64,000 nt of DNA from a virus, in IMG/VR virus record IMGVR_UViG_3300042887_005324, positions 110,042 to 174,041 of that record. One strand, written 5' to 3'. The stretch's first letter is position 1. Every line of letters starts with the position of its first letter. Of the stretch, positions 17,015 through 52,534 are shown piece after piece. The notes below the pieces were generated by a model that was given only the letters and a program-made list of their open reading frames with translations, made no database searches and was not told where the DNA came from. The translations under genes and the position numbers were made by a program.

Positions 17015-17209
17015 ATGATTATTATTGAAATCGAACAAGGAAAAGATGGACTTGAGAAGTCGTTGAAAAAGTATAAAAGAAAATTCGACAAGCTTAAAAT
17101 TATGAAATCTCTTAGAGATAGAAAATATTACAAAAAGAAATCTGTCAAAAGAAGAGAAGAGATTAATAAAGCTATATATGTTCAACAAAAATTTAAATCA
17201 GAAGACTAA
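17015..17209 (+). CDS. rpsU: ribosomal protein bS21 homologue
   Basis: 64 aa, full length for Bacteroidota bS21. It matches the family along its whole length: a beta-strand start (MIIIEIEQG), the basic helix LKKYKRKFDK, a second basic stretch LRDRKYYKKKSVKRREE, and a C-terminal KAIYVQ. bS21 binds the 30S platform next to the 3' end of 16S rRNA. In Flavobacterium ribosomes bS21 with bS18 and bS6 is reported to sequester the anti-Shine-Dalgarno sequence, and the tyrosine in this C-terminal segment (Y55 here) aligns with the one described there. Packed in the gp46 operon (3 nt upstream gap, 1 nt downstream overlap). Confidence 0.92.
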   Translation: MIIIEIEQGKDGLEKSLKKYKRKFDKLKIMKSLRDRKYYKKKSVKRREEINKAIYVQQKFKSED

Positions 17210-17616
17210 TGGGATTTTTCAAAAGGTTTATTACTAAGGACTTAATACTTGCACAAAAAAATTGTGAGAGTGTATTGAATTTATTAGAAGCAGATGCAGT
17301 AGTCTTTGATACTTGGTCATCTAACTTCTTCAAAAGATTTGATGACAATTATAACGATTATCAAGAAAAAAGACAAAAAAAGATTGAACAATATCAGTTC
17401 TCATCTTCTTATGCAAATATACAAGAATTTGACACACATCATATTTCTAATATTTTAATAAATCTCAAAAATGAACCTTGTTGGATCGATATACATGTTT
17501 GTCTCGAAGCATTTAAGCCGGTTGAGATATCATCTAGAATAAGTGGTCAGTTTGAATTACTTCGTGAATTTTGTATAAATCTGATTGAAAATAAACTCGA
17601 GAATGGATTTCAATAA
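17209..17616 (+). CDS. hypothetical protein, 135 aa
   Basis: Its ATG shares one base with the bS21 stop codon, so translation is likely coupled. The protein has aromatic-rich sequence (DTWSSNFFKRFDDNYNDY) and a C-terminal helix; no known motif. It overlaps the DnaJ start by 14 nt. Function unknown. Confidence 0.65.
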   Translation: MGFFKRFITKDLILAQKNCESVLNLLEADAVVFDTWSSNFFKRFDDNYNDYQEKRQKKIEQYQFSSSYANIQEFDTHHISNILINLKNEPCWIDIHVCLEAFKPVEISSRISGQFELLREFCINLIENKLENGFQ

Positions 17617-18325
17617 AAATTATTATTCTATTTTAGGATTGAATTCTAATTCAACTGAAAAAGAAATAAAGAAGTCTTACTATAAATTATCTTTTACACA
17701 CCATCCTGACAAAGGTGGTGACGAATTAATTTTCTCTGAAATAACAGAGGCATATGATATTTTGATGGATGAAAAATCTAGAGAAGAATATGATAAAAAA
17801 AGTAAATGGGGTTCAAATTATGATGAATCAATTGAACTTTTGAACTATGAGTTTAGTAATACAGCAAAAGGATGGGATGAAGAAAAACTAACTGGTTGGA
17901 TAAATGAGAATCAATTAAATATTTTAATATACATAGATGATTCATTTGATGGTAAAGTTGAATACGAAAGATGGGTCACCTGTAAAAAATGTGGAGGAGA
18001 TGGTAAAGACACAACATCTAAAATTCAAATAAAAGATGAAAATGGAAACATTTTAAAACTTTTTGATGGATCAGAAGGATGTGATTTTTGTGAAGGAACT
18101 GGTAAAAACTGGAAGAACGAATCTTGTTATTTTTGTGCAGGTAAGGGTAAAGTAGGTTTTACTGATTGTCAATCCTGTAATGGTGAAAAAAGAATAAAAG
18201 GAAAACAAAAACTAAAAGGTATAAAGTTTCCAAAAAAAGAAAAGGCACACAAGATTGAAGCAATGGGTCATGTGTCTAAATTTGAAACAGGCAAAGTTGG
18301 TTGTCTTTGGTTAATTAAAAAATAA
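17603..18325 (+). CDS. truncated DnaJ/Hsp40-like co-chaperone
   Basis: 240 aa from the ATG at 17603. A J domain occupies residues 1-70 with HPD at 34-36, the tripeptide that stimulates DnaK ATPase. A cysteine-rich region holds four CxxC units (CKKC near 127, CDFC near 160, CYFC near 175, CQSC near 189), as in class A DnaJ zinc fingers. The Gly/Phe linker is reduced and the C-terminal substrate-binding beta-domains and dimerisation region of host DnaJ (about 370 aa) are missing. Likely recruits host DnaK for replication or virion assembly, as lambda redirects DnaJ/DnaK; the specific role is inferred. Confidence 0.88.
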   Translation: MDFNKNYYSILGLNSNSTEKEIKKSYYKLSFTHHPDKGGDELIFSEITEAYDILMDEKSREEYDKKSKWGSNYDESIELLNYEFSNTAKGWDEEKLTGWINENQLNILIYIDDSFDGKVEYERWVTCKKCGGDGKDTTSKIQIKDENGNILKLFDGSEGCDFCEGTGKNWKNESCYFCAGKGKVGFTDCQSCNGEKRIKGKQKLKGIKFPKKEKAHKIEAMGHVSKFETGKVGCLWLIKK

Positions 18326-21300
18326 TTATACGCCATCTCCACCAGTTGGAGCGTCTTCTGGACTTCTAGATGCTTGACTATAATTATTAAGTTGACTTGG
18401 ATTCCAAGGACTTGGTTGAGGTACTGACGAAATTCCACCTTGTTGGCTTAAAGGTTGTTGTTGAACAATACCTTGTGTATCAAAATTCAAATTTACATTA
18501 CCAATAAAGTCAAAATTAGAATCAGTATAATCAATATAAGGAGCAGTTGCTTTTAATGGTATCTTAATTCCTTCGTATATACTAGTAGCAGTTGCATATT
18601 GGAAGAAAGGAACCATATCAACTTCAGTAAATGAAATATTTCTAAATGAAATTCTAGTAGTAAGATTTGAAGTCGGTGGATAATTACTTGTATCAAATGT
18701 TCCTATTGAAATATTTTCGTTTAATATACGATTATCTATTACAAGATCCAAATTCTGTCTATTATAGAAGAATTCAACTTTTTTTGTAAGTGAAGTTTCT
18801 TGATGATTAAAGTCAGTAAGTAAAATTTTAGAGTATCTATTTATAGTTTTAGAACTCGTAGCACCACTAAAATCAGAAGAAGCAATATCAAGTTCAATTG
18901 CATAGTATCTGTCTACTAAAGTTGTTATATCATTGTTTCTCAACTCAAAACTATGTCTTTTTGAAACTCTATATTGACCAAGACCAGGACCTACACCACT
19001 TTTCGTCTGTGCTCCACCATCCGAAAAAGTGAATACTAATCTACCAGCTGTTTGTGAACTTCTATTCGAATCGATTTTAATTCCTTTAGCAGGTGTTATT
19101 TGAATTTCACCGACACCATAGTTGAAACTATAAGTTGCAATTCTTGAAGTAATATCATTTACTTCCCATCCATCATTTGTGAAATTAGTAATAGTAAGTT
19201 GTGGACCGAAAAGTTGATTTGAGTAGTTGTTACTGAACTGTTTAAAGAAAAATCCATTATCAGGCATTAGATTTTCAAATCTAGAGAACTTTGTACCAAG
19301 TTTATAATCTCTACTAACAGTAGCAGCAAAGTCTCTAAATGTTGATTGACTTTCTAAGACATCTAATGTTACAAGTCCATCTAAATTTGGTAGATTTTTG
19401 ACAACAGATTGTGTTGTGCCATCAACTTGAGGAACTTCAGAAAAGACTACTTCAGGTAAATTCAAATTACTTTTTGAAAAATTCTCATAAACAACATCCA
19501 TGAAGCTCAAATATTTCTTCTCATTCTCTAATCCAACATTATTATCCACAAAACTCATTTTCTGAACTAATCCGGTGTTGTAAATTGAATCTGGATTTAA
19601 TGGATTAGAAGATTTATTTGAAGTAAATCTACCACCATCAATCTTACCATCAATCATCTGAGACTCATACATCTGTGTAATTTTCGGATATCCTTTAAAT
19701 AAACCATTATTCCAAACTCCTCTGAATCCGCCATTTAAGAAAGCTCCTGATAACCAAATATTTTTCGTAACATATATTAAGTGATTAAAAGAATCTCTTA
19801 CTATTCTTCTTATTGGGAAGTTACTCACTAATTTAAGAACCACAATGTTATTTGTATAATCAATATTAATAATTCTAAACCAATCCTTAATTAATTTTCT
19901 TTGTTCATTAACATCAATTGCTACTATATTACCGACTGAAACTTTATCACCTAAGGAAAGATTTGTTATTTCATCTATTGATTTCAATGCGACATTCCAA
20001 GTAATATCATCGATTTGTACCGTACTTAAATTAGTTGTTGGTGTTAAACCATCTATACCAATCACATCAGAAAATAAGATATAATCTTGTTCGTCAAACC
20101 ATTCGGTATTGCCTCTGAAACCATTGTTCCAAACACCATTTTCCCAAATACCGGACCTAAACACACCATTACCATAATTAATACTTACTAAATTACCGTT
20201 ATCTGAGGTTGCAGTTGGTCGTAAATAAGCATCATTTGGAAGTGAAGCGGTGTTCCCAACTACTAAGTTCTGTATAACTACATTATTATATGAAGGGTGA
20301 TATTCAGTTGATTTCTTTGTAACTTGAGCCGAAAGAATTCTTAATATACCTTGTGTAGCTTTTCTTATCCAGAATTTATTACCTATAACCTCACCATCTG
20401 AGTTCTCAGCAAGTAATTGTTCAGCAGTTGGTGTGTAGTTTAGTGTAATTTCATAAATTTTTGGATAGTAATTTCTTTTTATTGTACTACCACTGCCTGT
20501 TGTGTAACTATCACTATCTAAATAAGCAGTATATGGAGTTAGAGCGCCGATACCGAACTCAACACCAACCTGAGTTATTAGTTCAACCGATAAGACTAGA
20601 TTAATTTCGTAGGTTGTTGAAGCATCATCAAATATTTCTAAACTCGTAAGATTAATAACATTACCAACATGTCCATACAATCTCCTACTAGGAGCAATGT
20701 CAGGTCGTTGTGTTGAGTTGTATCCAGCTACAACTGCAGGTGATGCTACTTCAGGTAGATCTCCGCCTTTTGTAAAATAGTGAGTATCACTGATAGTAAA
20801 TATTTGATTATTGGTTTGTCTAAGTGAAAAAGTAGATCCTTTATTCCAATAAGATCTATCCAATTCCCCAAATACTCTCGTTTTTGAGGCGTTGGTTCTG
20901 ACTTCGTTATAGGTATAGACGGTACTACTTCCTGGAATTGTGTAACCAATTACTCCATTATATTTTAGGTCGTCATTATATATGATTGTGTTAGCATCAG
21001 CTCCGTACATAACCATTGAAGCAGTAGGTGTGGTGAAGAAAAAATCTATGTTCGCGGTCAAATTCGGGTCAGTCAGTAGACTCTGAGGCGCGATAGATGA
21101 ACTAAAGGCATTTATAACATGTAATGAAGAAGTACCAATAAATCTTGAAACATTTCTTATTAAGTCTAATTGTTTTCCTTTCAAAACATACATTGCTCTT
21201 GTATTAGACCAAGTTGCTAAAGAAGTATAATCAAATGGTGAACCGTTCCAGTTACCATTTCTCCATAAACCATCTTCCCAATAAATATTCTCGGCAGTTC

Positions 21301-24300
21301 CATAATTCCAAGTACCATTCGTCCATTTTGCACCAGCCATATATCCGGAATTGAAAGTTCCTTTCTTCCACTCAGCGTGATAAAAAGAACCAGTACCGTA
21401 GTTCGAATTAAATTTACCATTTTCCCAAACAATTGATGCAGTTGAAGCAAAAGATGATTTCGAGAAAGAACCTGTGAATGTTCTATCAACATACGGATTA
21501 AATATACTGCTATCAAAATTACCATCTTGGAATGAACCAGATAAAAATAGAGAATTTTTAAATGTTCCTTGAACATGACTAAAAGTACCACTAAGCCAAA
21601 GCATATTATCAAAAAGAGCCAAATTATTAGTTGATACTTTTTGATTGTCTTTAGTAAGCTCAGTAAATATTATACCATCACTTTTGATTTTCTCTGGTGT
21701 ATCAATAACATTACCACTTCTCCAAAGACCATAATAACTTGATGTGAAAGAATTAGCAAAGTCAAACTCACCTGTTGTATCAGTTGGTGAATCTGAAAGA
21801 CTAAAAGTTCCACTTCCTAAGAAACTACCTTTATTAAAAGTTCCACTGTACCAATATCTTCCAGCAAAAATACCATCATTAAACTCACCAGTATACCAAA
21901 CTGAGTTAGTCGCAGTACTTGAATTACCAAACTCACCGCCATTAAATTTACCATTTTCCCATCCATAAAAAGAAGCTGTCAAAGCAGTACCAATGGGTTT
22001 AACATTAGTGTAACCATATTCAGAAAGGAATTTACCTTTATTAAAATTTCCGTCTTTCCATCTAGCTTGTAAAGTAAGTTTACCACCATTAAAATCTCCA
22101 TTATACCAAATAGACTCATTTGTTGATTGTGACCCAAAACTAGTGAACTCACCATTGTCAAATTTACCATCTAACCAATATACACTACCAGATCCACCAA
22201 CCAAAGCATTTTCCACGATACCATTCTCCCATGTTGTGAAAGTTGCTGCAGTAGGAATATATCTTTGAAGACTACCAAGTGTAGTATTGGTATAATTTAA
22301 ATTTCTGGATCCAAGTATACCATTTTTCCAATCACCACCATACCAATCTGAATTATAAAATCTACCATTCTCAAATGTACCATCTGACCAAGCTGATTTG
22401 TAGAACTCTCCAGCTGAGAAAGTACCTTCAATCCAAGACATATATTGACTAGTTAAGTCATAGTTATAGTTAGAACCAGCTAAATATGTAGAAGTAGTAA
22501 GTCCCTTAGAATCAATGAAACTACCGTTGTTGAATATACCATCTAACCAATATGAACTTTTGAAAATTCCATTATTGAAGGTACCTTTATTCCAAATTGA
22601 GTTAAAAAATATACCATTAGTCCAAGTATCATTTATGAAATGTGATTTGTAGACTAATCCAGACTTGACATTGTTGTTTGAGTTTTTGAAAAAATGATTA
22701 ACTAATCTTAAAGTATTTGTATTATCAACATCAAGATTTTTATCTCTATTGTTAAATTCTGAATTTTCGATAGTAGAATTTTTAATAAGATTTCTTTTAA
22801 ATAATCCAGATACTATTTTAGAGTTATCTATTAGTAATGGATGTATAGAAATATAATTTGCTTTTTCTCCCTCATTAATTGATATTTCGTCGAACGTATC
22901 TGGCCAAACTTGGTTTGATTTTCTAGTGAGTGTATATCTAATATATCCAGTTTGTGAAATTTCTAGTCTACCACCGACCTGGTATCTACCAGATAAATCA
23001 TAAACAACTGGGTCATTATTCTTTCTAACTGAAACTCCACTCAACCAAACATCTTTGTTATTAATTTCAAAGTCAAAATAATTAGAAGCGACAATTTGTT
23101 GTGTTGGTGGAGTGCGGTGAGAGTAGAAAAACTTATCAGAAAGATATATATATATTCTATTCTCATCAGAACGTGATATTTTAAGAAGATTAGTATCCGG
23201 ATCAGTCGACAAAGCTTGATTTCTAGTAATTATATTTTGACTAATATTTACATTATCTCCACTCAACCAAGTTGAATTATAAAAAACACCAAATTTAAAG
23301 TCTGCATTATGTATATAAGTATTATTGAAAACTTTACTCAAAGTAGTAAAAGTTACTGGACTAAGTAAAAAATCATCACTGTATACTGTAGTGTTATTTG
23401 TGCTATCTTTCCAATATCCTAGTAATTTATGATCTATATCAATTGATGAGTAAACTGTCGTGTTAGTCTCAAAGGTATTATTATAATCAGTACCATTGTA
23501 ACTAACATAATATTTAATTTTATTATCATTTTTACTCTTGAAAGTAACAACAATTCTTTCATCTTCTTTTAATTCGTGATCAACATATGAATCTAAAATA
23601 TACTTAGTTTCAAAAGGTAAAATTATTTTTTGTTGTTCATCTAAGCTAGATAAAATATATTCTTTATTTACTCTTGAAATATAAAATGAGTTACTTATAT
23701 TTAATCTTAAAATATCATCATCTGAAATGTAAAGCTTAAGTATTCCTCTTACATAGTCAGTACCAAGAGATGATTCGTCTCTATTATATGACCAAATATC
23801 ACTTGCTAAAATTTTGATACCACTTTTATCACTATATTCACTAAGATTAGCTGTTGATTTAGTTATTTGACTGTTAATTAATTTTGAATTGTTTATATTT
23901 GATTCACTAATTTGACAATCTTGCAAAGTTGCATTATTAACACTTGAAAATTGAATATCACCAAATTTGATTTTTGCTTTATTAATTTTTGAAGGATAAG
24001 AGAAAGTTAATCCATCATAAAAATTATCTATTGCTTTACTAAAATTAGATAGAGAGTATCCAAAATTAACCCTTTCAAATACTCCATTATTAACCTCGGA
24101 TGCAAATAAATTTGTGTCAACTACTAAATTTCTACCAAATCCTTTATTATTAGTAAAGTCAATACTCTGAGTTCTAACTTTTTGATTCGTAGTCTCATTT
24201 AATGAAAGCTTAGAATAATAAGTTTTTTCATTATCTGCAGATTTAGAATTCATTATACCAAAATTCCAGTTAGAATTAAGAAATATACCACTTTGCCAAG

Positions 24301-25306
24301 TAGCACCTAATGATCTATAACTACTACCTAGCTTCTTACCCCAATTATTTATTTTAAGATTTGTTCCAAAGACACCATCTTTATGATCACCTCTAAAAGT
24401 ACCATATCTAAAGTTTAGCTTTGATATAAAAGGATCTTTATAAAGAATATCAGTTTTCCATGTTGTGCCATCAAAGGTATAAATACTTCTTTGTCTAAGT
24501 GTTAGATTAGTAGTAAATGAGGGTGTTTGAAGAACTATATCTTCACCAACAATTAATATTGAATTGTTTAGATTATTTCTTGGATTTATTGATATTACTC
24601 TACCTGCTAAAAACTCTTCAGTTACATCGATCCACTGTGGTGGGGAATTTGAGTCATCTCTCACAAAAAAACCACTTCCTCCACTAATACCTCCGTTTAT
24701 GGATAAGTCATCAACTGGATCTGGTGGAAGGTAGTCTGTTAATTGCAAAAAGACTAGTGAATCACCAAAGAGAACACAATACTGATCACTTGAACCAGAT
24801 ACCATCGGTAGTTTTTTTCCGAAGAATTTACTTGCAAATCCTTGTGGTTTAGTGAATAAAGGAATTCCTATATCGTTTGTTACAGTAATTTCATCATAAG
24901 CAATTTGAAAGGTATTAATATAATCGAATTCTCTTGGATTATTTACTCTTACTACCTTTATGAAATCATTATAATTAGATTCAACAAACGGCAATGTACC
25001 ATCATAGTCTATGTCTAATATTATTCTACAACCATCACATGCTAATACACGATATCCATCAGTGTACCTTGTAAACTTATTATTAGATATTAGCACATCA
25101 GAATCGTAATTACCATTTACAATAAATACTCTATCACCAACATTGAAATTAGTATTATTTTCAGTATAAAATACTGTTTTTCTAAAACCACCTATTTCAA
25201 CTGGTTCTGTAAAATTTAACAATCTAGAACTATAAAACTTATCTGATTTTTTTGTTTTCAAATAAGTAGGATTGGAACTTAGAACTTTTGAAGTAGGTGT
25301 TGCCAT
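18326..25306 (-). CDS. giant virion protein with WxxG/F repeats
   Basis: 2326 aa. A beta-rich N-terminal third is followed by a long repeat region (about residues 890-1740) of short units such as WNKGTFNNGIF, WLDGIFNNGSF and WENGKFNGGEF, where an aromatic residue and a Gly alternate with a spacing of about five, as in pentapeptide or MORN-like solenoids. Smaller copies occur near residues 300-350 and 1845-1890. The C-terminus is Pro/Gln/Ser-rich. No signal peptide. Size, composition and the late-type upstream box fit a baseplate or fibre component. Convergent with DnaJ with no gap. Confidence 0.75.
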   Translation of the reverse strand: MATPTSKVLSSNPTYLKTKKSDKFYSSRLLNFTEPVEIGGFRKTVFYTENNTNFNVGDRVFIVNGNYDSDVLISNNKFTRYTDGYRVLACDGCRIILDIDYDGTLPFVESNYNDFIKVVRVNNPREFDYINTFQIAYDEITVTNDIGIPLFTKPQGFASKFFGKKLPMVSGSSDQYCVLFGDSLVFLQLTDYLPPDPVDDLSINGGISGGSGFFVRDDSNSPPQWIDVTEEFLAGRVISINPRNNLNNSILIVGEDIVLQTPSFTTNLTLRQRSIYTFDGTTWKTDILYKDPFISKLNFRYGTFRGDHKDGVFGTNLKINNWGKKLGSSYRSLGATWQSGIFLNSNWNFGIMNSKSADNEKTYYSKLSLNETTNQKVRTQSIDFTNNKGFGRNLVVDTNLFASEVNNGVFERVNFGYSLSNFSKAIDNFYDGLTFSYPSKINKAKIKFGDIQFSSVNNATLQDCQISESNINNSKLINSQITKSTANLSEYSDKSGIKILASDIWSYNRDESSLGTDYVRGILKLYISDDDILRLNISNSFYISRVNKEYILSSLDEQQKIILPFETKYILDSYVDHELKEDERIVVTFKSKNDNKIKYYVSYNGTDYNNTFETNTTVYSSIDIDHKLLGYWKDSTNNTTVYSDDFLLSPVTFTTLSKVFNNTYIHNADFKFGVFYNSTWLSGDNVNISQNIITRNQALSTDPDTNLLKISRSDENRIYIYLSDKFFYSHRTPPTQQIVASNYFDFEINNKDVWLSGVSVRKNNDPVVYDLSGRYQVGGRLEISQTGYIRYTLTRKSNQVWPDTFDEISINEGEKANYISIHPLLIDNSKIVSGLFKRNLIKNSTIENSEFNNRDKNLDVDNTNTLRLVNHFFKNSNNNVKSGLVYKSHFINDTWTNGIFFNSIWNKGTFNNGIFKSSYWLDGIFNNGSFIDSKGLTTSTYLAGSNYNYDLTSQYMSWIEGTFSAGEFYKSAWSDGTFENGRFYNSDWYGGDWKNGILGSRNLNYTNTTLGSLQRYIPTAATFTTWENGIVENALVGGSGSVYWLDGKFDNGEFTSFGSQSTNESIWYNGDFNGGKLTLQARWKDGNFNKGKFLSEYGYTNVKPIGTALTASFYGWENGKFNGGEFGNSSTATNSVWYTGEFNDGIFAGRYWYSGTFNKGSFLGSGTFSLSDSPTDTTGEFDFANSFTSSYYGLWRSGNVIDTPEKIKSDGIIFTELTKDNQKVSTNNLALFDNMLWLSGTFSHVQGTFKNSLFLSGSFQDGNFDSSIFNPYVDRTFTGSFSKSSFASTASIVWENGKFNSNYGTGSFYHAEWKKGTFNSGYMAGAKWTNGTWNYGTAENIYWEDGLWRNGNWNGSPFDYTSLATWSNTRAMYVLKGKQLDLIRNVSRFIGTSSLHVINAFSSSIAPQSLLTDPNLTANIDFFFTTPTASMVMYGADANTIIYNDDLKYNGVIGYTIPGSSTVYTYNEVRTNASKTRVFGELDRSYWNKGSTFSLRQTNNQIFTISDTHYFTKGGDLPEVASPAVVAGYNSTQRPDIAPSRRLYGHVGNVINLTSLEIFDDASTTYEINLVLSVELITQVGVEFGIGALTPYTAYLDSDSYTTGSGSTIKRNYYPKIYEITLNYTPTAEQLLAENSDGEVIGNKFWIRKATQGILRILSAQVTKKSTEYHPSYNNVVIQNLVVGNTASLPNDAYLRPTATSDNGNLVSINYGNGVFRSGIWENGVWNNGFRGNTEWFDEQDYILFSDVIGIDGLTPTTNLSTVQIDDITWNVALKSIDEITNLSLGDKVSVGNIVAIDVNEQRKLIKDWFRIINIDYTNNIVVLKLVSNFPIRRIVRDSFNHLIYVTKNIWLSGAFLNGGFRGVWNNGLFKGYPKITQMYESQMIDGKIDGGRFTSNKSSNPLNPDSIYNTGLVQKMSFVDNNVGLENEKKYLSFMDVVYENFSKSNLNLPEVVFSEVPQVDGTTQSVVKNLPNLDGLVTLDVLESQSTFRDFAATVSRDYKLGTKFSRFENLMPDNGFFFKQFSNNYSNQLFGPQLTITNFTNDGWEVNDITSRIATYSFNYGVGEIQITPAKGIKIDSNRSSQTAGRLVFTFSDGGAQTKSGVGPGLGQYRVSKRHSFELRNNDITTLVDRYYAIELDIASSDFSGATSSKTINRYSKILLTDFNHQETSLTKKVEFFYNRQNLDLVIDNRILNENISIGTFDTSNYPPTSNLTTRISFRNISFTEVDMVPFFQYATATSIYEGIKIPLKATAPYIDYTDSNFDFIGNVNLNFDTQGIVQQQPLSQQGGISSVPQPSPWNPSQLNNYSQASRSPEDAPTGGDGV
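20080..22640 (-). repeat. coding region of WxxGxF solenoid-like repeats
   Basis: Tens of degenerate units coding W-x-x-G-x-F/W-x-x-G. DNA identity between units is low compared with the collagen tracts, so the repeat is old and kept at protein level. Confidence 0.7.
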
Positions 25307-25330
25307 CTAAAGATAATTATAACATTTTGT

Positions 25331-25420: not shown

Positions 25421-25636
25421 ATGTATTTAATATGTAAAAATAATTTTCAAACATTGAATTCATCCGAATTTACTTTTGAAAAAGGATTAACATATAAAAT
25501 AGAAGTCAACAATTTTTATTGTGATGAGAACATAACATTCCTAATAAATGACATCGAGATATCACTTTCTGTTTTAAAAAATTATTTTGTTAATATCGAA
25601 ACTTGGAGAGATTTACAAATAAAAGAATTATTATGA
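25421..25636 (+). CDS. small hypothetical protein, 71 aa
   Basis: The ATG at 25421 is preferred over an in-frame GTG two codons earlier. The product has no recognised motif. Its stop overlaps the start of the epimerase gene as ATGA, implying coupled translation. Function unknown. Confidence 0.55.
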   Translation: MYLICKNNFQTLNSSEFTFEKGLTYKIEVNNFYCDENITFLINDIEISLSVLKNYFVNIETWRDLQIKELL

Positions 25637-26283
25637 TTCTATCACCTTCAGTCTTATCAGCAGATTTCGCTAATCTACAAAATGATATTGAAATGTTAAA
25701 CAATTCTAAATGTGATTGGCTTCACATAGATATAATGGACGGTGTATTTGTACCTAACATATCTTTTGGTATTCCAGTATTAAAATCAATAAAAAAACAC
25801 TCTAATAAAATTCTGGATGTTCATCTAATGATTGTTGAACCAGAAAAATGGATAAGTGAATTCAGAGACGCTGGTGCAGATATTTTAACAGTACATTACG
25901 AATGTTCACCACATTTACATAGAACTATTGATGCAATCAAAAAAAGTGGTATGAAAGCTGGTGTAGCTATCAATCCACATACACCAGTTAGTGTATTAGA
26001 AGAGATATTATCTGAAGTTGATTTAATTTTGGTTATGAGTGTGAATCCTGGCTTTGGCGGCCAATCCTTCATAGAAAATACATATAATAAAGTTTTATCT
26101 CTAAGTAAGTTGATTGATTCAAAAAACACTAAGACAAGACCAATAATTCAAGTAGATGGTGGTGTAAATTTAGATAATGCAAGTAAACTAATTAGTAGTG
26201 GAGCTAATGCATTAGTAGCTGGAAATTCTATATTCAATACAAAGAACCCAATAGATGTAATTTCAGAATTTAAATCGATTTAA
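25633..26283 (+). CDS. rpe: ribulose-phosphate 3-epimerase
   Basis: 216 aa from the ATG at 25633, the usual length. The family motifs are all present: SPSVLSADF at the start, HIDIMDGVFVPN with metal-binding His and Asp, DVHLM with the second metal His, MSVNPGFGGQ phosphate-binding loop, and QVDGGV with the catalytic Asp, followed by GANALVAGNSIF. The enzyme interconverts ribulose-5-P and xylulose-5-P in the pentose phosphate pathway. In a phage it is an auxiliary metabolic gene that could shift carbon towards or from ribose-5-P for nucleotide synthesis. It appears intact and active. Confidence 0.95.
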   Translation: MILSPSVLSADFANLQNDIEMLNNSKCDWLHIDIMDGVFVPNISFGIPVLKSIKKHSNKILDVHLMIVEPEKWISEFRDAGADILTVHYECSPHLHRTIDAIKKSGMKAGVAINPHTPVSVLEEILSEVDLILVMSVNPGFGGQSFIENTYNKVLSLSKLIDSKNTKTRPIIQVDGGVNLDNASKLISSGANALVAGNSIFNTKNPIDVISEFKSI

Positions 26284-30932: not shown

Positions 30933-30940
30933 TATCTTTG
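30933..30940 (+). promoter_or_regulatory. Bacteroidota-type -7 promoter box (TATCTTTG)
   Basis: 6 nt before the ATG at 30947. Its last bases form the TTG that opens a slightly longer reading frame, which argues against that TTG as start. Confidence 0.6.
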
Positions 30941-30946
30941 TTCATT

Positions 30947-31405
30947 ATGTATAATATACACATCATAGAAAATCAGAAAGAAAATACTGTACCAGTAACA
31001 CTCACTATTGTAAAAAATGGTAATAAGTTATTGATGGTTAAAGCAGTAAAGTGGTTCACTGGTTTTGGACTTCGTGAATCTAAAGATATAATTGATATGG
31101 TGGATAAAATTCCACAGATTATAAAGAAATATGCAACAACTGAAGAAATAATCGAACTACGAAAAGATTTATCTACCAACTCTGAGTGTTTATACACAAT
31201 TGATACGGTATCTGAATCAAGAAATAAGAAGTTGATTGAACTTGGTCTTGGCACAAAACAAGACTATATAGATGATTTAGTAGAAAAAGATTTACATACA
31301 CTTATCTCAAAAAGGTTTGATTATAGTGAACTTAAAAAGGTTTTAACAGAAAGATATAGTTTGATTAGTAAAGAAAATTTAGAAAAAATATATGAAAGTA
31401 ATTAG
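30947..31405 (+). CDS. protein with ribosomal L7/L12 C-terminal-like domain
   Basis: 152 aa from the ATG at 30947. Residues about 12-75 contain KLLMVKAVKWFTGFGLRESKD followed by IIDMVDKIPQIIKK and ATTEEIIELRKDL, closely following the bL12 C-terminal domain (KI.VIKAVR..TGLGLKEAKDLVD..P). That domain recruits translation GTPases to the ribosome. The N-terminal dimerisation/stalk-anchoring domain and hinge are missing; instead there is a C-terminal helical extension of about 75 residues. It could compete for or tether elongation or initiation factors. L7/L12-CTD-like domains also occur in non-ribosomal proteins, so the role is inferred. Confidence 0.72.
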   Translation: MYNIHIIENQKENTVPVTLTIVKNGNKLLMVKAVKWFTGFGLRESKDIIDMVDKIPQIIKKYATTEEIIELRKDLSTNSECLYTIDTVSESRNKKLIELGLGTKQDYIDDLVEKDLHTLISKRFDYSELKKVLTERYSLISKENLEKIYESN

Positions 31406-33794: not shown

Positions 33795-34883
33795 TTATTT
33801 AGCAACTGAAAGAAAAATCTTTCTTGCTGATCTATCAACAGCGATAATTTTTACTTTTACATCATCACCAGCGTTGAACTTCTTTGAAGTCTTTTCTAAT
33901 TCAGATGTGTGAATCAAACCGTTTGTTTCTTCATCAAGAATAACAAGAGCTCCAAAAGGTTTCATATCTTTGATTTTACCATCAATTGTTTGACCAACTT
34001 TGATAGTGTCCCACAAAGACTCACGAAGAATTTGTGTCAAGATAATCTTATCTTTAATGATTTCTTTGATGTAGAATTGGATTTGGAATCCAGGTGTGAT
34101 TTGGTGAATACGATCTGCCCATTCTGGAACGATATTAGTCTTGTGAATCATACCAGTCAAACAATCGTTGAACTCAACGAATACTCCGAACTGAGTTGTA
34201 CCAGTTACATTACCAGTGTAAACAACTCCATACTCAAGTTCTTTGATAGCTTGTGGAATAAGAGTTTGTAGATATTTTCTACGGCTCACAATGTAAGTTC
34301 CTTCTTCTTTAGCAAAAGATTCGATCATTACTTCAAAAGTTTGACCAACAATTGTCTCAGGTGATGATAACTTATTGATACCAGCTAATGTATTTGGCAT
34401 AAATCCTGGTAGAGTAACACCTTCATACTGAATTTCAACTGCGTATCCAGCTGGAGTAAGTTCTTTGACATGAGCAGTGACTGAAACTCCTTCTTCTAAG
34501 TTAGTGAGGCTAGCTCTTGCTTTAGACTCATAAAGTTCAGATAAACTTCCTTTGATTAAATAATCGTTTTCATCAACTTCACTAATCAAAACATCGATTG
34601 ATTCACCGATATTTGTATTTTTCAAATATTTAGCTTCACTTGGTCGGTTTTCAATTCGAACATAATCTTTGAATCCACCGTCAAAAGTGAAAGAATCACC
34701 AGAAATACCTACATATTTCACATTCATTACAGCACCTTGTATTGGTGTTCTCATTTCATAAGCATCGTATAGAGATGCCATTTTTTGTCTTTCTTGTTGA
34801 TAAGCTTCGACTGCATTTACATCGAGAACATCAACATCATCAAAATCCATCATTCGTGGATCGTACTTTAATTTTTTACCCAT
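33795..34883 (-). CDS. ribosomal protein S1-like RNA-binding protein (about four S1 domains)
   Basis: 362 aa. After a ~45-residue leader the protein has tandem OB-fold S1-type repeats (about 45-115, 128-210, 219-285, 292-360). The third and fourth are clearest: VVYTGNVTGTTQFGVFVEF then GMIHKTNIVPEW; VGQTIDGKIKDMKPFGALV then GLIHTSEL and KVKIIAVDRSARKIFLS. Host bS1 of Bacteroidota usually has more domains and about 600 aa. It may bind mRNA or replace/compete with host S1 on the 30S subunit, or act as a stand-alone RNA chaperone. Expressed from its own transcription unit with terminator. Confidence 0.85.
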   Translation of the reverse strand: MGKKLKYDPRMMDFDDVDVLDVNAVEAYQQERQKMASLYDAYEMRTPIQGAVMNVKYVGISGDSFTFDGGFKDYVRIENRPSEAKYLKNTNIGESIDVLISEVDENDYLIKGSLSELYESKARASLTNLEEGVSVTAHVKELTPAGYAVEIQYEGVTLPGFMPNTLAGINKLSSPETIVGQTFEVMIESFAKEEGTYIVSRRKYLQTLIPQAIKELEYGVVYTGNVTGTTQFGVFVEFNDCLTGMIHKTNIVPEWADRIHQITPGFQIQFYIKEIIKDKIILTQILRESLWDTIKVGQTIDGKIKDMKPFGALVILDEETNGLIHTSELEKTSKKFNAGDDVKVKIIAVDRSARKIFLSVAK

Positions 34884-45518: not shown

Positions 45519-45578
45519 TATTATTTGATTACTTTTTTTTATTTTATACAAATTGACATTGAATGTTGAATTTTATCT

Positions 45579-45586
45579 TATATTTG
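45579..45586 (+). promoter_or_regulatory. Bacteroidota-type -7 promoter box (TATATTTG)
   Basis: 5 nt before the ATG at 45592; predicts a leaderless or nearly leaderless mRNA for the acyl-carrier-like gene. Confidence 0.65.
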
Positions 45587-45591
45587 TAATA

Positions 45592-45885: not shown

Positions 45886-45910
45886 ACTTGTTTTTTTAAG
45901 AAAAATCACT

Positions 45911-45918
45911 TATATTTG
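45911..45918 (+). promoter_or_regulatory. Bacteroidota-type -7 promoter box (TATATTTG)
   Basis: 5 nt before the ATG of the DNA ligase gene at 45924. Confidence 0.65.
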
Positions 45919-45923
45919 TAAAT

Positions 45924-47762: not shown

Positions 47763-47780
47763 CTCATAAAAAATTAAACT

Positions 47781-47794
47781 TTTAATATATATAA
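47781..47794 (+). promoter_or_regulatory. candidate phage-type promoter box upstream of the sigma-factor gene (TTTAATATATATAA)
   Basis: About 100 nt upstream of the sigma-factor start. If used by the phage sigma it would give autoregulation and a 5' leader of about 95 nt. Confidence 0.4.
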
Positions 47795-47824
47795 TCATAT
47801 AAATTAAGTATATTTATATACATT

Positions 47825-47896
47825 AACGGCAATTAGAGAGAATTAAGAAATTGATATATTGATTATATATCAAAAAACAAAAATAAACGGCAATTA
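47825..47896 (+). promoter_or_regulatory. leader with repeated AACGGCAATTA and a 9-bp inverted repeat
   Basis: AACGGCAATTA occurs at 47825-47835 and again at 47886-47896, the second copy overlapping the ATG. Between them, 47851-47873 is an inverted repeat with perfect arms TTGATATAT/ATATATCAA around a 5-nt centre. The layout suggests protein binding or translational control of the sigma gene. Confidence 0.45.
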
Positions 47897-48507
47897 TGGC
47901 AGAAGAAAAAGAAAAAACAGTCACAACATTCTCAGAACATGAAATCATTTTCAGAGAAAGAACAGGAAATGATTTTACATTTTTTTACAAAAAGTATTAT
48001 CCAAAGTTAATCTACTACACACAAAAAATGTGTGGAGACTCACAAAAAGCAGAAGATGTCACAGTAGAATCTTTTATGACAGCTTTTGAAAAAATCGAAA
48101 AGTACGAAAAAGAAAAAGCTCAATTCTCAACTTGGCTATTCACTATTGCTCGTAATATAATGTTACAAGACATCAAATCAACTCGTAAAACAATTTCAAT
48201 CGATGTTGAATTAGACGAAGAAGGTACAACTCTTAAAGACTTCATCGAAGAAGAAGAAGATAATTCTCACCTTACAAATCTTAATATCAAAAAAGCTGAT
48301 ATTATGAAAAAACACATTTCTGAACTAAAAGAACCTTATAAATCAGTTATTGAAATGAGAGAAATTCAGAAAATGGCTTATAAAGATATCGCAGATAAAT
48401 TAGGAAAAAATTTATCCACGATAAAAAGCCAAATTCGTAACGGTCGAGCTATACTTATATCACAGACTCAAAAAGAATTTGACATTCTTGAGAATATGTA
48501 TTTATAA
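47896..48507 (+). CDS. phage-encoded ECF-type sigma factor
   Basis: 203 aa. Region 2 (about 21-95) has FTFFYKKYYPKLIYYTQKM, then KAEDVTVESFMTAFEKIEKY and FSTWLFTIARNIMLQDIKS, matching the -10-binding core; region 4 (about 140-195) has LKEPYKSVIEMREIQKMAYK and DIADKLGKNLSTIKSQIRNGR, a helix-turn-helix. Region 3 is replaced by an acidic linker (FIEEEEDN). It would direct host RNA polymerase to phage promoters, a functional counterpart of T4 gp55. It is the obvious candidate to recognise the TTAATATATA-like boxes. Convergent with the outer-membrane-protein gene. Confidence 0.88.
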   Translation: MAEEKEKTVTTFSEHEIIFRERTGNDFTFFYKKYYPKLIYYTQKMCGDSQKAEDVTVESFMTAFEKIEKYEKEKAQFSTWLFTIARNIMLQDIKSTRKTISIDVELDEEGTTLKDFIEEEEDNSHLTNLNIKKADIMKKHISELKEPYKSVIEMREIQKMAYKDIADKLGKNLSTIKSQIRNGRAILISQTQKEFDILENMYL

Positions 48508-49269: not shown

Positions 49270-49272
49270 ATA

Positions 49273-49287
49273 CAATATATATTAAAC
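49273..49287 (-). promoter_or_regulatory. candidate phage-type promoter box (GTTTAATATATATTG)
   Basis: Minus strand, 3 nt upstream of the ATG of the outer-membrane-protein gene. Confidence 0.45.
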
Positions 49288-49302
49288 TTAAAAAAATAAA
49301 TT

Positions 49303-49632
49303 ATGAGTATGATTACATATGCTACTGAACTAAATTCAGATAATTTTAAGACCACAATTAGTAATAATGAACTAGTTGTTGTTGATATCTGGGCTAAATG
49401 GTGTGGTCCGTGCAAAATGATATCACCAATTATTGATGAAGTTGCGGCTGAATTCGGAGAAAAAGTATTAGTCGGGAAACTTGAAACTGATCCTAACAAA
49501 GAATTAGTTGGTGAATTAGGTGTTAGAAATATCCCAACAATTTTAATCTACAAAAATGGCGAAGTTGTTGATCGACTTGTTGGTATGAAAAATAAAGCTG
49601 ACATAACAGAAACAATAAACAAATACATCTAA
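49303..49632 (+). CDS. trxA: thioredoxin
   Basis: 109 aa with the active site WCGPC at about 33-37 (VVDIWAKWCGPCKMI), the cis-Pro loop VRNIPTILIYKNG and the C-terminal GMKNKADITE helix: a complete cytoplasmic thioredoxin. In phages it may reduce ribonucleotide reductase or act as a polymerase processivity factor; neither partner is in the window. Its own terminator follows directly. Confidence 0.95.
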   Translation: MSMITYATELNSDNFKTTISNNELVVVDIWAKWCGPCKMISPIIDEVAAEFGEKVLVGKLETDPNKELVGELGVRNIPTILIYKNGEVVDRLVGMKNKADITETINKYI

Positions 49633-49660
49633 AAAAAACCACTCAAATGAGTGGTTTTTT
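49633..49660 (+). terminator. intrinsic terminator after thioredoxin
   Basis: AACCACTC/GAGTGGTT stem with an AAAT loop and six-T tail; A-run on the left would also allow reverse function. Confidence 0.9.
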
Positions 49661-49673
49661 AATTTAATATCAC

Positions 49674-49681
49674 TATATTTG
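49674..49681 (+). promoter_or_regulatory. Bacteroidota-type -7 promoter box (TATATTTG)
   Basis: 4 nt before the ATG of SmpB; isolated from thioredoxin by the terminator, so smpB is an independent, probably leaderless unit. Confidence 0.65.
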
Positions 49682-49685
49682 TAGA

Positions 49686-50114
49686 ATGATTGTTAATAGA
49701 AAAGCGAGATTTGAATATCATATTCTCAAAGAATACACGGCTGGTATACAACTTTTAGGGTCTGAGGTTAAATCTCTACGGTCTTCTAATGCTAATATCT
49801 CAGAGTCTTATTGTTATATTTGGAATAATGAGATTTTCGTAAAAAATATGTTTATTTCAAAATACGAAGAATCATCTTGGTTGAATCATGATGAAAGAAG
49901 AGACAGAAAATTATTACTCAATAAGTCCGAAATAAGAGAGATTGTTAAATTGAATCAAGATAATGGTGTTACCATTATTCCACTTGAATTATTTATTGTT
50001 AATGGTAGATTCAAATTAAAAATTGGTGTAGCAAAAGGTAAGAAGAATTTTGACAAAAGGCAGTCTATAAAGGAAAGAGAAGTTAAAAGAGAGATTTCAA
50101 GAGACTATAAATAA
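49686..50114 (+). CDS. smpB: SmpB, tmRNA-binding ribosome-rescue protein
   Basis: 142 aa, close to full bacterial length. NRKARFEYHILKEYTAGIQL with GSEVKSLRSSNANISESYCY is the conserved OB-fold core that binds the tRNA-like domain of tmRNA; ELFIVNGRFKLKIGVAKGKK and the C-terminal basic tail (DKRQSIKEREVKREISRDYK) that enters the mRNA channel are also intact. In bacteria SmpB with tmRNA releases stalled ribosomes. No tmRNA gene is recognised in the window, so it may use host tmRNA. Own TATATTTG promoter. Confidence 0.93.
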   Translation: MIVNRKARFEYHILKEYTAGIQLLGSEVKSLRSSNANISESYCYIWNNEIFVKNMFISKYEESSWLNHDERRDRKLLLNKSEIREIVKLNQDNGVTIIPLELFIVNGRFKLKIGVAKGKKNFDKRQSIKEREVKREISRDYK

Positions 50115-50304
50115 ACTTTTTAGATTTTTTGACTATAAAATCAACTTAATGTTCGAAAACCTGTGAACCACCTTATATTAAATATCATATAATATAATAT
50201 ATGAAGGGAGTTTTTAGATACAATGAACCTCTTAAATTTTTATTAAGAGGTTCATTTTTTAGACAGATAAAAATTTGATATATAAACAAAAAACCCGCTA
50301 AAAA
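50115..50304. other. 190-nt gap after smpB with a hairpin; no clear gene
   Basis: Contains AT-rich sequence, a short reading frame at 50201-50278 (25 codons) that contains the terminator hairpin and so is probably not coding, and a terminator. No tmRNA could be recognised. A short transcript ending at the hairpin is possible. Confidence 0.4.
50222..50260 (+). terminator. intrinsic terminator downstream of smpB
   Basis: Long stem AATGAACCTCTTAA/TTAAGAGGTTCATT with a short loop and T-run; lies 108 nt after the smpB stop. Confidence 0.8.
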
Positions 50305-50460
50305 ATGTCAAATGAAGAATTAATTGAAGAAATTCTTGTTAGTTCCTATAAATTAGGTATTGATAAAGATGTATTTGAACTATCAAGAAAGTATGAAAAA
50401 AATCTACCAAGAGTTGATGCTTTTCAAAAAGCTTTTTACGAAATAAAAAAAAATTTATAA
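50305..50460 (+). CDS. small hypothetical protein, 51 aa
   Basis: ATG at 50305 gives a 51-residue helical protein (NEELIEEILVSSYKLGID, then FQKAFYEIKKNL). It ends one base before the next gene, so it likely opens the operon with the I78-like inhibitor and lysozyme. Unknown function. Confidence 0.6.
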   Translation: MSNEELIEEILVSSYKLGIDKDVFELSRKYEKNLPRVDAFQKAFYEIKKNL

Positions 50461-50461
50461 T

Positions 50462-50659
50462 ATGATTAGACCAATAAGTGAAAGAGATTATGTCGGACTT
50501 ACTTTAATAGAAGCTGATGTTCAAGCTAGTGCAGATGGATACGAAATTAGAGTAGTGGAAGAAGATGGTGTATCTAGAATGCTAGTCATGGATGCAAAAT
50601 CAAATCGTCTAAATCTTAGATTAAGAAACAATATTGTAACCGCTGCTTATACTGGATAA
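50462..50659 (+). CDS. I78-type peptidase-inhibitor-like small protein
   Basis: 65 aa. GYEIRVVEEDGVSRMLVMDA followed by KSNRLNLRLRNNIVTAAYTG matches the potato-inhibitor-I/I78 fold: a short helix, two strands, a binding loop and a C-terminal strand ending xxY-x-G. These proteins inhibit serine proteases. No signal peptide, so intracellular. Close to the lysozyme gene (2 nt gap). The fold call is moderate; target unknown. Confidence 0.65.
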   Translation: MIRPISERDYVGLTLIEADVQASADGYEIRVVEEDGVSRMLVMDAKSNRLNLRLRNNIVTAAYTG

Positions 50660-50661
50660 AA

Positions 50662-51345
50662 ATGAAGACTAAATTTTTATTTCTATTTTTATTGTTGTCG
50701 AAAACAATACACTCTGGAAGTTCAAATAATAGTTGTCAGTATTTTAATTGTTACTACACTGGTATAGATATATCTCACTATCAAGGTGATATAAAGTGGT
50801 CAGAAATTGACTCTACATTAGATTTTGTGATAGTTAAAGCATCTGAAGGTGAAAGCTTAGTTGATTGTAAATTCGAAAAGAATTGGAATTCAATTAAATG
50901 TTTAAAAGGTGCCTATCATTTTTTTAGACCACAATATTCTGGTGAAAAACAAGCTAACTTATTTCTTAATGTAGTTAATTTTAAGCCAGGTGATATAAAA
51001 CCAATAATAGATGTTGAATATTCCCATTACTGGAAAGATACAATAAATATTAAAAAATATATTGATAACTTAGTTTGTTTTATCTCAGTAATCAAAGAAA
51101 GAACTGGTGTTATGCCAATTATTTACACTAATCCTCTTTTTTGGTCTAAGTACATAGAAAATCATTATCACTTTGATCACATACTTTGGGTAGCAGACTG
51201 GAGAGATAGAGAAGAACCCGAAATACCATCTAAATTTCATGATTGGACACTTTGGCAGTATTCTGATAAAGGAACCGTAAAAGGAATTAAAGGTCCAGTT
51301 GATTTAAACTACTGTAAAGATTTGGACACACTATTAATTAAATAA
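50662..51345 (+). CDS. GH25 family lysozyme with signal peptide (endolysin)
   Basis: 227 aa. The first ~18 residues (MKTKFLFLFLLLSKTIHS) form a Sec signal peptide. The catalytic domain begins YYTGIDISHYQGDIKW with the conserved first Asp, has DFVIVKASEGES, KGAYHFFRP and IIDVEYS (catalytic acidic pair) and ends WTLWQYSDKGTVKGIKGPVD, the complete GH25 pattern. It cleaves the MurNAc-GlcNAc bond of peptidoglycan. Sec export would deliver it to the periplasm without a holin pore, as in signal-arrest-release or exported endolysins. A terminator follows. Confidence 0.92.
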   Translation: MKTKFLFLFLLLSKTIHSGSSNNSCQYFNCYYTGIDISHYQGDIKWSEIDSTLDFVIVKASEGESLVDCKFEKNWNSIKCLKGAYHFFRPQYSGEKQANLFLNVVNFKPGDIKPIIDVEYSHYWKDTINIKKYIDNLVCFISVIKERTGVMPIIYTNPLFWSKYIENHYHFDHILWVADWRDREEPEIPSKFHDWTLWQYSDKGTVKGIKGPVDLNYCKDLDTLLIK

Positions 51346-51375
51346 AAAAACCTCTCAAATGAGAGGTTTTCTTTT
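51344..51375. terminator. bidirectional intrinsic terminator
   Basis: CCTCTC-AAAT-GAGAGG stem with A-run on the left and T-run on the right, between convergent lysozyme and nuclease genes. Confidence 0.9.
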
Positions 51376-52003
51376 AGTATGTTAGAGGTACTTTATACTT
51401 TAATTTCTTTTCTAAATCACCGATAGATAATTCTTGACAATATTTATCTGCATCTTTAGGTACATTTGCAAACCAAAGAGCATGTGTTACTTTTTTTGTA
51501 GATAGTGAGACTACAACTTTCCAACAATAATCTGGTACATAAACATTATTACCAATCTTTTTATTTGAAAATACACCACCACATATAACTAAAAGTGAGT
51601 CTGTTTGTGATTCTTGTCTGATTTGTGTTTCCCACTTCTTCCAGATTCCTCTATTTAGATTTGGGTATTGAGGTAAACAATTATAAAATCTGAATGTTTT
51701 CTCATCTTTGACACAATCAAAAGCAAAATCAGCAGCGTTTGCTAAGTGACCCATATCAAAACCACTACCAGCATAATCTTTATCAGTAGCCATAGGTATT
51801 TTTGTATCATTCTTAAACTTAAATCCAGCTCTACTACAATTACCACCACCTTTGTAAACTTTATAAGCTAAATAAACTGGTTCTTTAATATCAATATCAA
51901 AGTAAGACTTGTAAAAACCAGTATTGATTACTGTATCTATTCCTTGTGAAAAGGAAATTATGGATACAAAAATAGTAATTAAAAGTGAAATTATTTTTTT
52001 CAT
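51374..52003 (-). CDS. secreted DNA/RNA non-specific endonuclease (NUC1-like)
   Basis: 209 aa. MKKIISLLITIFVSIISFSQ is a signal peptide ending in the Ser-Gln typical of Bacteroidota. The catalytic region has DMGHLANAADF (canonical DRGH, here with Met for Arg) with the catalytic His, then NLNRGIWKKWE with the metal-binding Asn and Glu. Such nucleases are periplasmic or extracellular. In a phage, a periplasmic DNase could destroy incoming DNA (superinfection exclusion) or scavenge nucleotides after lysis. Overlaps the upstream gene by 4 nt (ATGA). Confidence 0.85.
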   Translation of the reverse strand: MKKIISLLITIFVSIISFSQGIDTVINTGFYKSYFDIDIKEPVYLAYKVYKGGGNCSRAGFKFKNDTKIPMATDKDYAGSGFDMGHLANAADFAFDCVKDEKTFRFYNCLPQYPNLNRGIWKKWETQIRQESQTDSLLVICGGVFSNKKIGNNVYVPDYCWKVVVSLSTKKVTHALWFANVPKDADKYCQELSIGDLEKKLKYKVPLTY

Positions 52004-52386
52004 ATTCTTCTGTTGTTATTTATTGGCATATCAGAGACAACTTGAACTTGTATTCCGAAATTATGACCATCTACATCTAAATCTCGATATTCAGTATTAG
52101 AATAGTTGATATTATTATTATCAAAAGTTATTGATTTTGGCCCATATCTTCTTTGATGTTCTCTTGCTCTTTGAGATTCGATTTCTCTTTGTTGAGCTGC
52201 AAACATCTCATCTACCGTCATATTATTATACGGGTTATCTAGCTGTGGATTTGGTATTGGATTATTAAACTCAGTTTTATAACCATACTTAGCAAGAAGA
52301 TTTGCTGCTTCACTACTTGTAACTTCAGTTGATTTAGTATCAACTTGTTGTGGCTCGATTAGTCTTACTTCAGGTCTATTATACAT
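52000..52386 (-). CDS. hypothetical protein, 128 aa
   Basis: Asn/Gln/Arg-rich with SSEAANLLAKYGYKTEF and a charged helix AAQQREIESQRAREHQRR; no signal peptide. Its stop overlaps the nuclease start, so the two are co-expressed. A TTTAATATATAG box lies upstream. Could be a minor virion or assembly protein; unknown. Confidence 0.6.
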   Translation of the reverse strand: MYNRPEVRLIEPQQVDTKSTEVTSSEAANLLAKYGYKTEFNNPIPNPQLDNPYNNMTVDEMFAAQQREIESQRAREHQRRYGPKSITFDNNNINYSNTEYRDLDVDGHNFGIQVQVVSDMPINNNRRI

Positions 52387-52390
52387 AGAA

Positions 52391-52402
52391 CTATATATTA
52401 AA
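52391..52402 (-). promoter_or_regulatory. candidate phage-type promoter box (TTTAATATATAG)
   Basis: Minus strand, 4 nt upstream of the 128-aa gene. Confidence 0.45.
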
Positions 52403-52436
52403 TAATTTTTTTATGTAAAATATCAAAACAAAGGAT

Positions 52437-52444
52437 TATTTTTG
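52437..52444 (+). promoter_or_regulatory. Bacteroidota-type -7 promoter box for the tRNA (TATTTTTG)
   Basis: 18 nt before the first tRNA base; suitable for a short 5' leader. Confidence 0.55.
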
Positions 52445-52462
52445 TAATATATACACATACAT

Positions 52463-52534
52463 TGCGGGATAGAGCAGAGGTAGCTCGCCAGGCTCATAAC
52501 CTGGAGGTCATTGGTTCAAATCCAGTTCCCGCTA
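52463..52534 (+). tRNA. initiator-type tRNA-Met (CAU)
   Basis: Folds as a full cloverleaf: acceptor TGCGGGA/TCCCGCT with only position 1:72 unpaired (T-T), D stem GAGC/GCTC with A11:T24, anticodon stem CCAGG/CCTGG around CTCATAA, T stem ATTGG/CCAGT with loop TTCAAAT. An unpaired 1:72 and the A11:U24 pair are hallmarks of bacterial initiator tRNA, and the anticodon is CAU. The first of the three G:C pairs normally next to the anticodon loop is A29:T41 here. CCA is not encoded. An elongator Met or Ile2 tRNA is less likely because of A11:U24 and the 1:72 mismatch. Confidence 0.9.

Follow-up and report, generated by a model that had tools for sequence, protein, structure and literature searches.

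The window analysed here, a stretch of 64,000 nucleotides corresponding to bases 110042-174041 of the 174041-base virus record IMGVR_UViG_3300042887_005324, encodes four proteins and one tRNA connected with translation, and a divergent transfer-messenger RNA (tmRNA) lying elsewhere in the record supplies the encoded SmpB with a partner. These elements probably make up a dispersed translation-adaptation set of a Mahaphage-clade virus of Bacteroidota, whose core would be bS21, an S1-like protein and the SmpB-tmRNA pair, with an initiator-type tRNA and a protein resembling the C-terminal domain (CTD) of L7/L12 as accessories, and which would provide phage-specialised ribosomes and phage-run ribosome rescue. 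A sequence-only reading of the window had already named its five parts, all of which lie where it placed them, give or take a few bases, and score above the curated Pfam or Rfam cut-offs; it left the minus-strand orientation of the S1-like gene unsaid, and it missed the tmRNA, which is outside the window, ~97 kb upstream of its SmpB-side genes. The elements and the TAnnTTTG boxes near them are as follows.

17015-17209, plus strand: bS21 (rpsU), 64 residues, Bacteroidota type; PF01165, 36.8 bits (cut-off 27)
30933-30940, plus strand: TAnnTTTG box TATCTTTG, just upstream of the L7/L12-CTD-like gene
30947-31405, plus strand: L7/L12-CTD-like protein, 152 residues; PF00542, 33.1 bits (cut-off 25.9)
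33795-34883, minus strand: S1-like protein, 362 residues, four S1/OB domains; PF00575, 76.3 bits (cut-off 22)
49674-49681, plus strand: Bacteroidota-type TAnnTTTG box TATATTTG, upstream of smpB
49686-50114, plus strand: SmpB, 142 residues, full length; PF01668, 183.3 bits over residues 2-142 (cut-off 27)
52437-52444, plus strand: TAnnTTTG box TATTTTTG, upstream of the initiator-type tRNA
52463-52534, plus strand: initiator-type tRNA-Met(CAT); ARAGORN, and Rfam at 64.4 bits; CCA not encoded
Record 14435-14784 (L002:14435-14784), outside the window, plus strand: one-piece tmRNA (ssrA), the partner of SmpB; profile search

The capsid protein of the record (L002:589-2349) is 66.7% identical to that of LR745206, a genome of 634,780 bases, and 65% identical to that of LR756502 (642,428 bases); identity is 51% with LR756504, 49% with LR756501 (735,411 bases), only 33% with LR756500 and only 30% with the Lak phages. 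Al-Shayeb et al. 2020 (PMC7162821) assign phages of more than 634 kb to the Mahaphage clade, predicted to infect Bacteroidetes, and by the relatedness of its capsid protein to theirs the record belongs to this clade. To judge from these sequences it is a 174 kb fragment of a Mahaphage-clade genome of ~630 kb, and since the genome is partial, a gene missing from the record proves little. Cellular contamination is ruled out by identical gene order and strand in two independent phage genomes of more than 630 kb. The host signals, namely the type of bS21, the affinity of SmpB, leaders devoid of Shine-Dalgarno (SD) motifs and the TAnnTTTG boxes, point to Bacteroidota.

The SmpB-tmRNA pair and its tag

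SmpB retains its contacts with the tRNA-like domain (NRKA, GSEVKS) as well as an intact basic C-terminal tail, DKRQSIKER, the form DKRxSIKER being common to phage SmpBs; its gene follows an apparent intrinsic terminator and has a box of its own, TATATTTG. In a tree with long branches, built on few columns (144), the record SmpB shows Bacteroidota affinity, the SmpB of G001 (a 464 kb relative) is placed apart from those of its capsid relatives, and the phage SmpBs are not one clade, the starred branches forcing at least two origins; on this ground SmpB function looks re-acquired, more than merely inherited. The record protein is less than 60% identical to anything in the phage collection, and the SmpB matches that small phage records of staphylococcal, listerial and coliphage type gave resemble host smpB genes at prophage ends.

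Neither ARAGORN nor Rfam at its gathering score detected a tmRNA in the record; tmRNAs above the Rfam cut-off are present in G001, LR756504, LR756500 and three Lak phages. A profile built from these relatives' tmRNAs and one weaker sequence (G004) matched record positions 14435-14784 with an E value of 6e-20, as well as LR745206 and LR756502, so that the initial result, an SmpB without a tmRNA, was overturned. The gene is 77% identical over 264 nucleotides to the above-cut-off tmRNA of G001, and RF00023 matches it at full length (positions 1-374) with 32.7 bits (E 1.9e-11), against a cut-off of 47 bits. Scanning viral contigs for a motif yielded further phage tmRNAs. In LR756501 the only candidate is a weak one, at 21 bits. 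In this clade the tmRNA gene lies near the capsid gene. An unconstrained alignment of nine clade tmRNAs recovered the acceptor stem, the long H2 helix and the T stem, with 62 pairs, 32 of them covarying by double changes, and the G3·U70 alanine identity pair is present in all nine, the record's acceptor being GGGGGUG/CAUCUCC. The T loops of several phage tmRNAs are non-canonical (for example GGCAGUN, against UUCRANN), which may explain the failure of the detection tools.

The tag frame has the resume context UAAA(U/C)-GGC, at an offset matching the bacterial one, followed by 27-30 open codons and a stop, and it starts ~94-102 nucleotides from the 5' end, again as in bacterial tmRNAs. The record's tag is GKTNEVASREELVAALRNNILKVNEVAVA, 29 residues before the stop, and the relatives' tags, of 27-30 residues and likewise closed by a stop, are GNTNEVASKEELVFALQNNILKTNEVASVA, GKTNEVASREDLVAALQNNMLKAEELAVV, GNVNEVGTREDLVATLQNNLFLVEELATA and similar, sharing the core NEVxxREDLVAALQNN. 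They end in VAVA in the record and in SVA, ATV, AVV, ATA or EVA in the clade, and the Mahaphage-clade tags lack a hydrophobic proteolysis signal of the LAA/MAA type at their end. Of 17 control tmRNAs, taken from genomes of Bacteroidota and Balneolota and all seen by ARAGORN, 16 have tags of 9-10 residues ending in LAA or MAA; the 29-residue tag of the remaining one (L419; coding part 221-310, no LAA/MAA end) was taken as an ARAGORN miscall. The Lak phages and LR756500 have 10-residue tags ending in MAA (DDEIDFRMAA, GNNAEMRMAA), and 10 is the commonest known tag length (PMC11915505). By these comparisons, the long tag without LAA/MAA is evidently a derived state in this clade. No other part of the phage genomes yielded a tag-like peptide in a pattern search. 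As a separate observation, the viral contigs L309 and L314 carry a distinct 24-residue tag, ANEISDFTFEDALSFVSNEVAIAA, and a group of viral-contig tmRNAs (L308, L311, L313, L317, L320, L324, L325) has tags ending in TFEDAMSFVGADLAVAA; long tags may be more frequent among phages than is known.

Ribosomal proteins, initiator-type tRNA and leaders

The best matches of bS21 in the PDB are 9i5v (44 bits) and Flavobacterium johnsoniae 7jil (42.7 bits), the next reaching 22.7 bits, and because Bacteroidota structures score far above all others the protein is assigned to the Bacteroidota type. Its Tyr55 aligns with F. johnsoniae Tyr54, a residue that helps to sequester the anti-SD tail and stacks on the 3' tail of 16S rRNA (PMC9976891), and this tyrosine is retained in all six phage bS21 proteins. 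The gene directly follows an SbcC-like recombination gene in an apparent operon, in which the preceding open reading frame (ORF) ends at 17011 and the following one starts at 17209. Phage bS21 and bL12 are able to enter 70S ribosomes (PMC6375957). The rpsU gene of LR756501 (locus L112) has a strong SD, AAAGGAGG, in a genome where AGGAGG-type motifs precede just 1.4% of ORFs, and this leader resembles those of host rpsU genes autoregulated by bS21; the record rpsU leader, unlike it, is without an SD.

Residues 49-359 of the S1-like protein were aligned by phmmer with residues 20-345 of Escherichia coli bS1, colinear with OB1-OB4, and residues 82-360 with 79-371 of 9zcd_A, from a PDB entry whose bS21 sequence is the same as that of F. 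johnsoniae 7jil. The protein lacks OB5-OB6; it has an OB1-OB2-like region, the counterpart of the part of bS1 (N-terminus and OB1-OB2) that docks on uS2.

The L7/L12-CTD-like protein, which starts at ATG 30947 or TTG 30938, retains the equivalents of E. coli K65, K70, R73(K), L80, E82 and K84 on its factor-binding surface. The N-terminal dimerisation and uL10-binding (docking) domain of bL12 is absent from the proteins of the record, LR745206, LR756502 and the viral contig L301, which instead share a C-terminal extension seen only in these phage relatives and unrelated to bL12; LR756501, by contrast, encodes a full-length bL12 of 123 residues with the N-terminal domain. Since that domain is missing, the protein is not filed as bL12, and a true bL12 stalk protein is ruled out; it could, from its sequence, gather translational GTPases without a normal seat in the stalk. 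The relative in L301 lies beside an S1-like gene, and a query with the protein against viral contigs gave no match. A single-sequence AlphaFold model (pLDDT 48.5) was discarded.

The tRNA at 52463-52534 bears a U1xU72 mismatch, and hence no Watson-Crick 1:72 pair, as expected of an initiator, together with A11:U24 (purine 11:pyrimidine 24) in a D stem GAGC/GCUC, and G2:C71 and C3:G70. Its anticodon stem has G30:C40 and G31:C39 but A29:U41, that is, two of the three G:C pairs at 29-31:39-41, and for this reason it is called initiator-type. A second tRNA-Met of the record (93381-93454) shows the usual features of an elongator and provides a built-in contrast. A pattern search of the relatives, run with a widened D-loop gap, found initiator-type tRNAs in LR745206 (2), LR756504 (2), LR756501 (3), Lak-C1 (1) and the contig of L304 (1), and none in LR756502 or the partial G001. 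In LR756504, at 280507-280948 on the minus strand, one such gene precedes the tmRNA gene, likewise on that strand, by 11 bases. Big tRNA arrays in which many isoacceptors are duplicated (several each for Asp, Glu, Lys and Asn) occupy 342554-408120 of LR745206 and 373174-423370 of LR756502; arrays of this kind are absent from the 174 kb of the record.

Leaders are SD-less, AGGAG or GGAGG being found in 0.7% of 145 ORFs. TAnnTTTG stands upstream of 16% of genes, versus 9% and 7% in controls, and upstream of four of the six translation elements, a comparison with the 16% base rate that was judged post hoc. A second motif, AATATATA, precedes genes in the record, LR745206 and LR756502 (26-29%, versus 8-12% for its reverse complement) and is a possible phage-specific promoter. 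The window also encodes a phage sigma-70-family factor with regions 2 and 4 (47896-48507), a candidate controller of the translation set.

Co-occurrence, proposed working and alternatives

Co-occurrence was searched in 18 records, including six Mahaphages with long sequence: the record, G001, LR745206, LR756502, LR756504 and LR756501. SmpB, bS21 and the S1-like protein occur together in all six, two of which have a rearranged order, and the L7/L12-CTD is confined to the record, LR745206, LR756502 and LR756501. The order bS21(+), L12(+), S1(-), SmpB(+), tRNA(+) is identical in the record and LR745206, and the same minus the tRNA in LR756502; in LR756504 and LR756501 the set is scattered. Outside these six, the Lak phages have the S1-like protein, SmpB and tmRNA and lack bS21, LR756500 has the S1-like protein and tmRNA and lacks SmpB, and neither SmpB, bS21, L12-CTD nor S1-like occurs in the smaller Bacteroidota phages PTm1 and MA9V-1 or in phage PAU. 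The sequence-only reading was to count as refuted if relatives carried the genes randomly and not together; this is not the case for a core of bS21, S1-like protein and SmpB, and is partly the case for the L12-like gene and the initiator tRNA, which are variable. The coordinated control that had been read from the five parts gains from this core and from the tmRNA partner, which makes a rescue role more credible than it was before, and loses in that there is no single locus and the test on boxes (4/6, post hoc) is weak.

If the set works as proposed, phage bS21 would exchange into the host 30S subunit, where its tyrosine would keep the anti-SD tail hidden and so maintain SD-independent initiation, the S1-like protein would aid the loading of the phage's SD-less, A-rich leaders, and the phage initiator tRNA would maintain or bias the fMet-tRNA pool. 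The phage SmpB-tmRNA would free ribosomes stalled on broken mRNAs, and the tmRNA, with its G3·U70 pair, would write a phage-specific 29-residue tag in place of the host degron of the GENNYALAA type, so that rescue would be preserved and the fate of the tagged product altered. The effect of the altered tag could be a different protease or adaptor, a change of stability, or mere length drift. We put forward only tentatively a more specific form, recoded trans-translation, in which phage SmpB and tmRNA attach the clade-conserved peptide of 27-30 residues and incomplete proteins are thereby kept from host ClpXP and directed to a different protease, adaptor or compartment, 30S initiation being re-equipped with bS21, the S1-like protein and the initiator tRNA.

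Several points weigh against a joint programme of this kind. The translation genes form no operon or cluster, spanning 36 kb on both strands, and some relatives lack the L12-like gene or the initiator tRNA. S1 domains are common in non-ribosomal proteins, and bacteria already possess all these functions, so the need for phage copies is not evident. The single-sequence fold of the record tmRNA is no more stable than shuffles (minimum free energy z -0.13), and support for the tmRNA therefore comes from homology and covariation. Constraint on the tag codons is only mild (pooled pN/pS, nonsynonymous to synonymous change, 0.65), and in it RNA-level and peptide-level conservation are inseparable, and peptide-level selection on the tag is suggested, not proven.

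It is possible, if doubtful, that these are separate accessory genes with no programme, each gained for its own reason, a view with which the unclustered genes on both strands, the patchiness of the L12-like gene and initiator tRNA and the two or more origins of SmpB agree. The initiator tRNA would then replace a tRNA cut by VapC-type anticodon nucleases, SmpB-tmRNA would handle mRNA breakage, the S1-like protein would be a general off-ribosome RNA-binding protein and the L12-CTD-like protein would bind translational GTPases. A defence against tRNA nucleases has indeed been argued for phage tRNAs, and initiator tRNA is among the targets of VapC (PMC10264068), but nuclease evasion predicts a mutated resistant loop, whereas the anticodon loop of the record tRNA, CTCATAA, is an ordinary initiator loop; and the fact that 6/6 genomes have bS21, S1-like protein and SmpB together, and at least 5/6 a tmRNA, speaks against separate genes.

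Sabotage of host quality control is improbable. Host rescue and ClpXP proteolysis would here fail because phage tmRNA and SmpB titrate host SmpB, alanyl-tRNA synthetase or stalled ribosomes, or because the tag they add is non-degradable; a pure decoy, however, needs neither the full tmRNA that is kept, with its alanine pair, resume context, tag frame and stop, nor an SmpB with an intact tail. The tag ends (VA, TV, VV, TA or similar, not LAA/MAA) and the non-canonical T loops of several phage tmRNAs would suit it, as would the report that the tmRNA of mycobacteriophage DS6A, consisting of the tRNA-like domain only, inhibits host tmRNA (PMC11915505, PMC4131195). That the genes are relics, captured from hosts in passing and drifting without function in infection, would accord with their high divergence (SmpB below 60% identity to the phage collection, long branches), but is very improbable and already largely refuted, since the frames are intact, key residues are conserved, RNA pairs covary throughout the clade and the genes recur in 6/6 genomes.

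Beyond the translation genes, the window holds two giant minus-strand ORFs of 2244 and 2326 residues (7212-13946 and 18326-25306) and a ribulose-phosphate 3-epimerase gene (25603-26283; PF00834, 254 bits), a metabolic gene unusual in a phage. At L004:2208-6075 the ribonucleotide reductase large subunit is divided into two ORFs (540 and 450 residues) with a 298-residue ORF between them, likely reflecting an intein, homing endonuclease or intron.

Relation to known systems and meaning

The combination of parts, which the sequence-only reading had treated as going beyond the single ribosomal proteins known from phages, is not new. Al-Shayeb et al. 2020 (PMC7162821) reported huge phages with S1 (up to six domains), S21, L7/L12, SmpB, tmRNA, initiation and elongation factors and many tRNAs, found S1-carrying huge phages to be SD-poor in their leaders, and interpreted this as intercepted translation; clade, kinds of genes and interpretation are the same as here. 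That work used ARAGORN, which here misses the tmRNAs of the record, LR745206 and LR756502, and in the part of it that was available, supplements aside, no mention was found of a long recoded tag, of tRNA-Met with initiator identity or of a T loop that is non-canonical. The jumbo cyanophage PhiMa05 (PMC13157829) likewise combines several ribosomal proteins in one phage, six including bS1, but these are other proteins in another host, and a tmRNA/SmpB pair is not described in the available part of that account.

Freshwater Bacteroidetes phages with bS21 (PMC9723584) have likewise a Bacteroidota-type bS21, the Tyr54 equivalent and an SD-less host context; their bS21 stands with capsid and terminase genes, whereas that of the record follows the SbcC-like gene, and in this clade the gene close to that of the capsid is the tmRNA gene. 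Complete or partial ssrA genes are known, as here, from the mycobacteriophage Bxz1 group, DS6A, Bacillus phage G and methylophage Melnitz; unlike those, the record ssrA is accompanied by its own smpB, is one-piece, and encodes a clade-conserved tag of 27-30 residues. Cellular Bacteroidota tmRNA-SmpB shares the G3·U70 acceptor, H2, the tag start at ~94-102 nucleotides and the SmpB tail, but compared with cellular tmRNA the phage tag is ~3x longer and without LAA/MAA, the T loop is not UUCRA in several, and the score is below the Rfam cut-off. New in the searchable literature are thus the hidden tmRNAs, the long recoded tags, the clade-wide pairing with phage SmpB and the initiator identity of up to three tRNAs per genome, although the supplementary tables of 2020 may list some of these.

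Both ARAGORN and the Rfam cut-off overlook phage tmRNAs, being blind to those of the published genomes LR745206 and LR756502. The translation pieces of huge phages were known, and whether they amount to working modules had stayed open; the SmpB-tmRNA pair with its rewritten tag is a directly assayable module, through which the purpose of a virus-owned rescue system and the fate of the proteins that it tags become testable.

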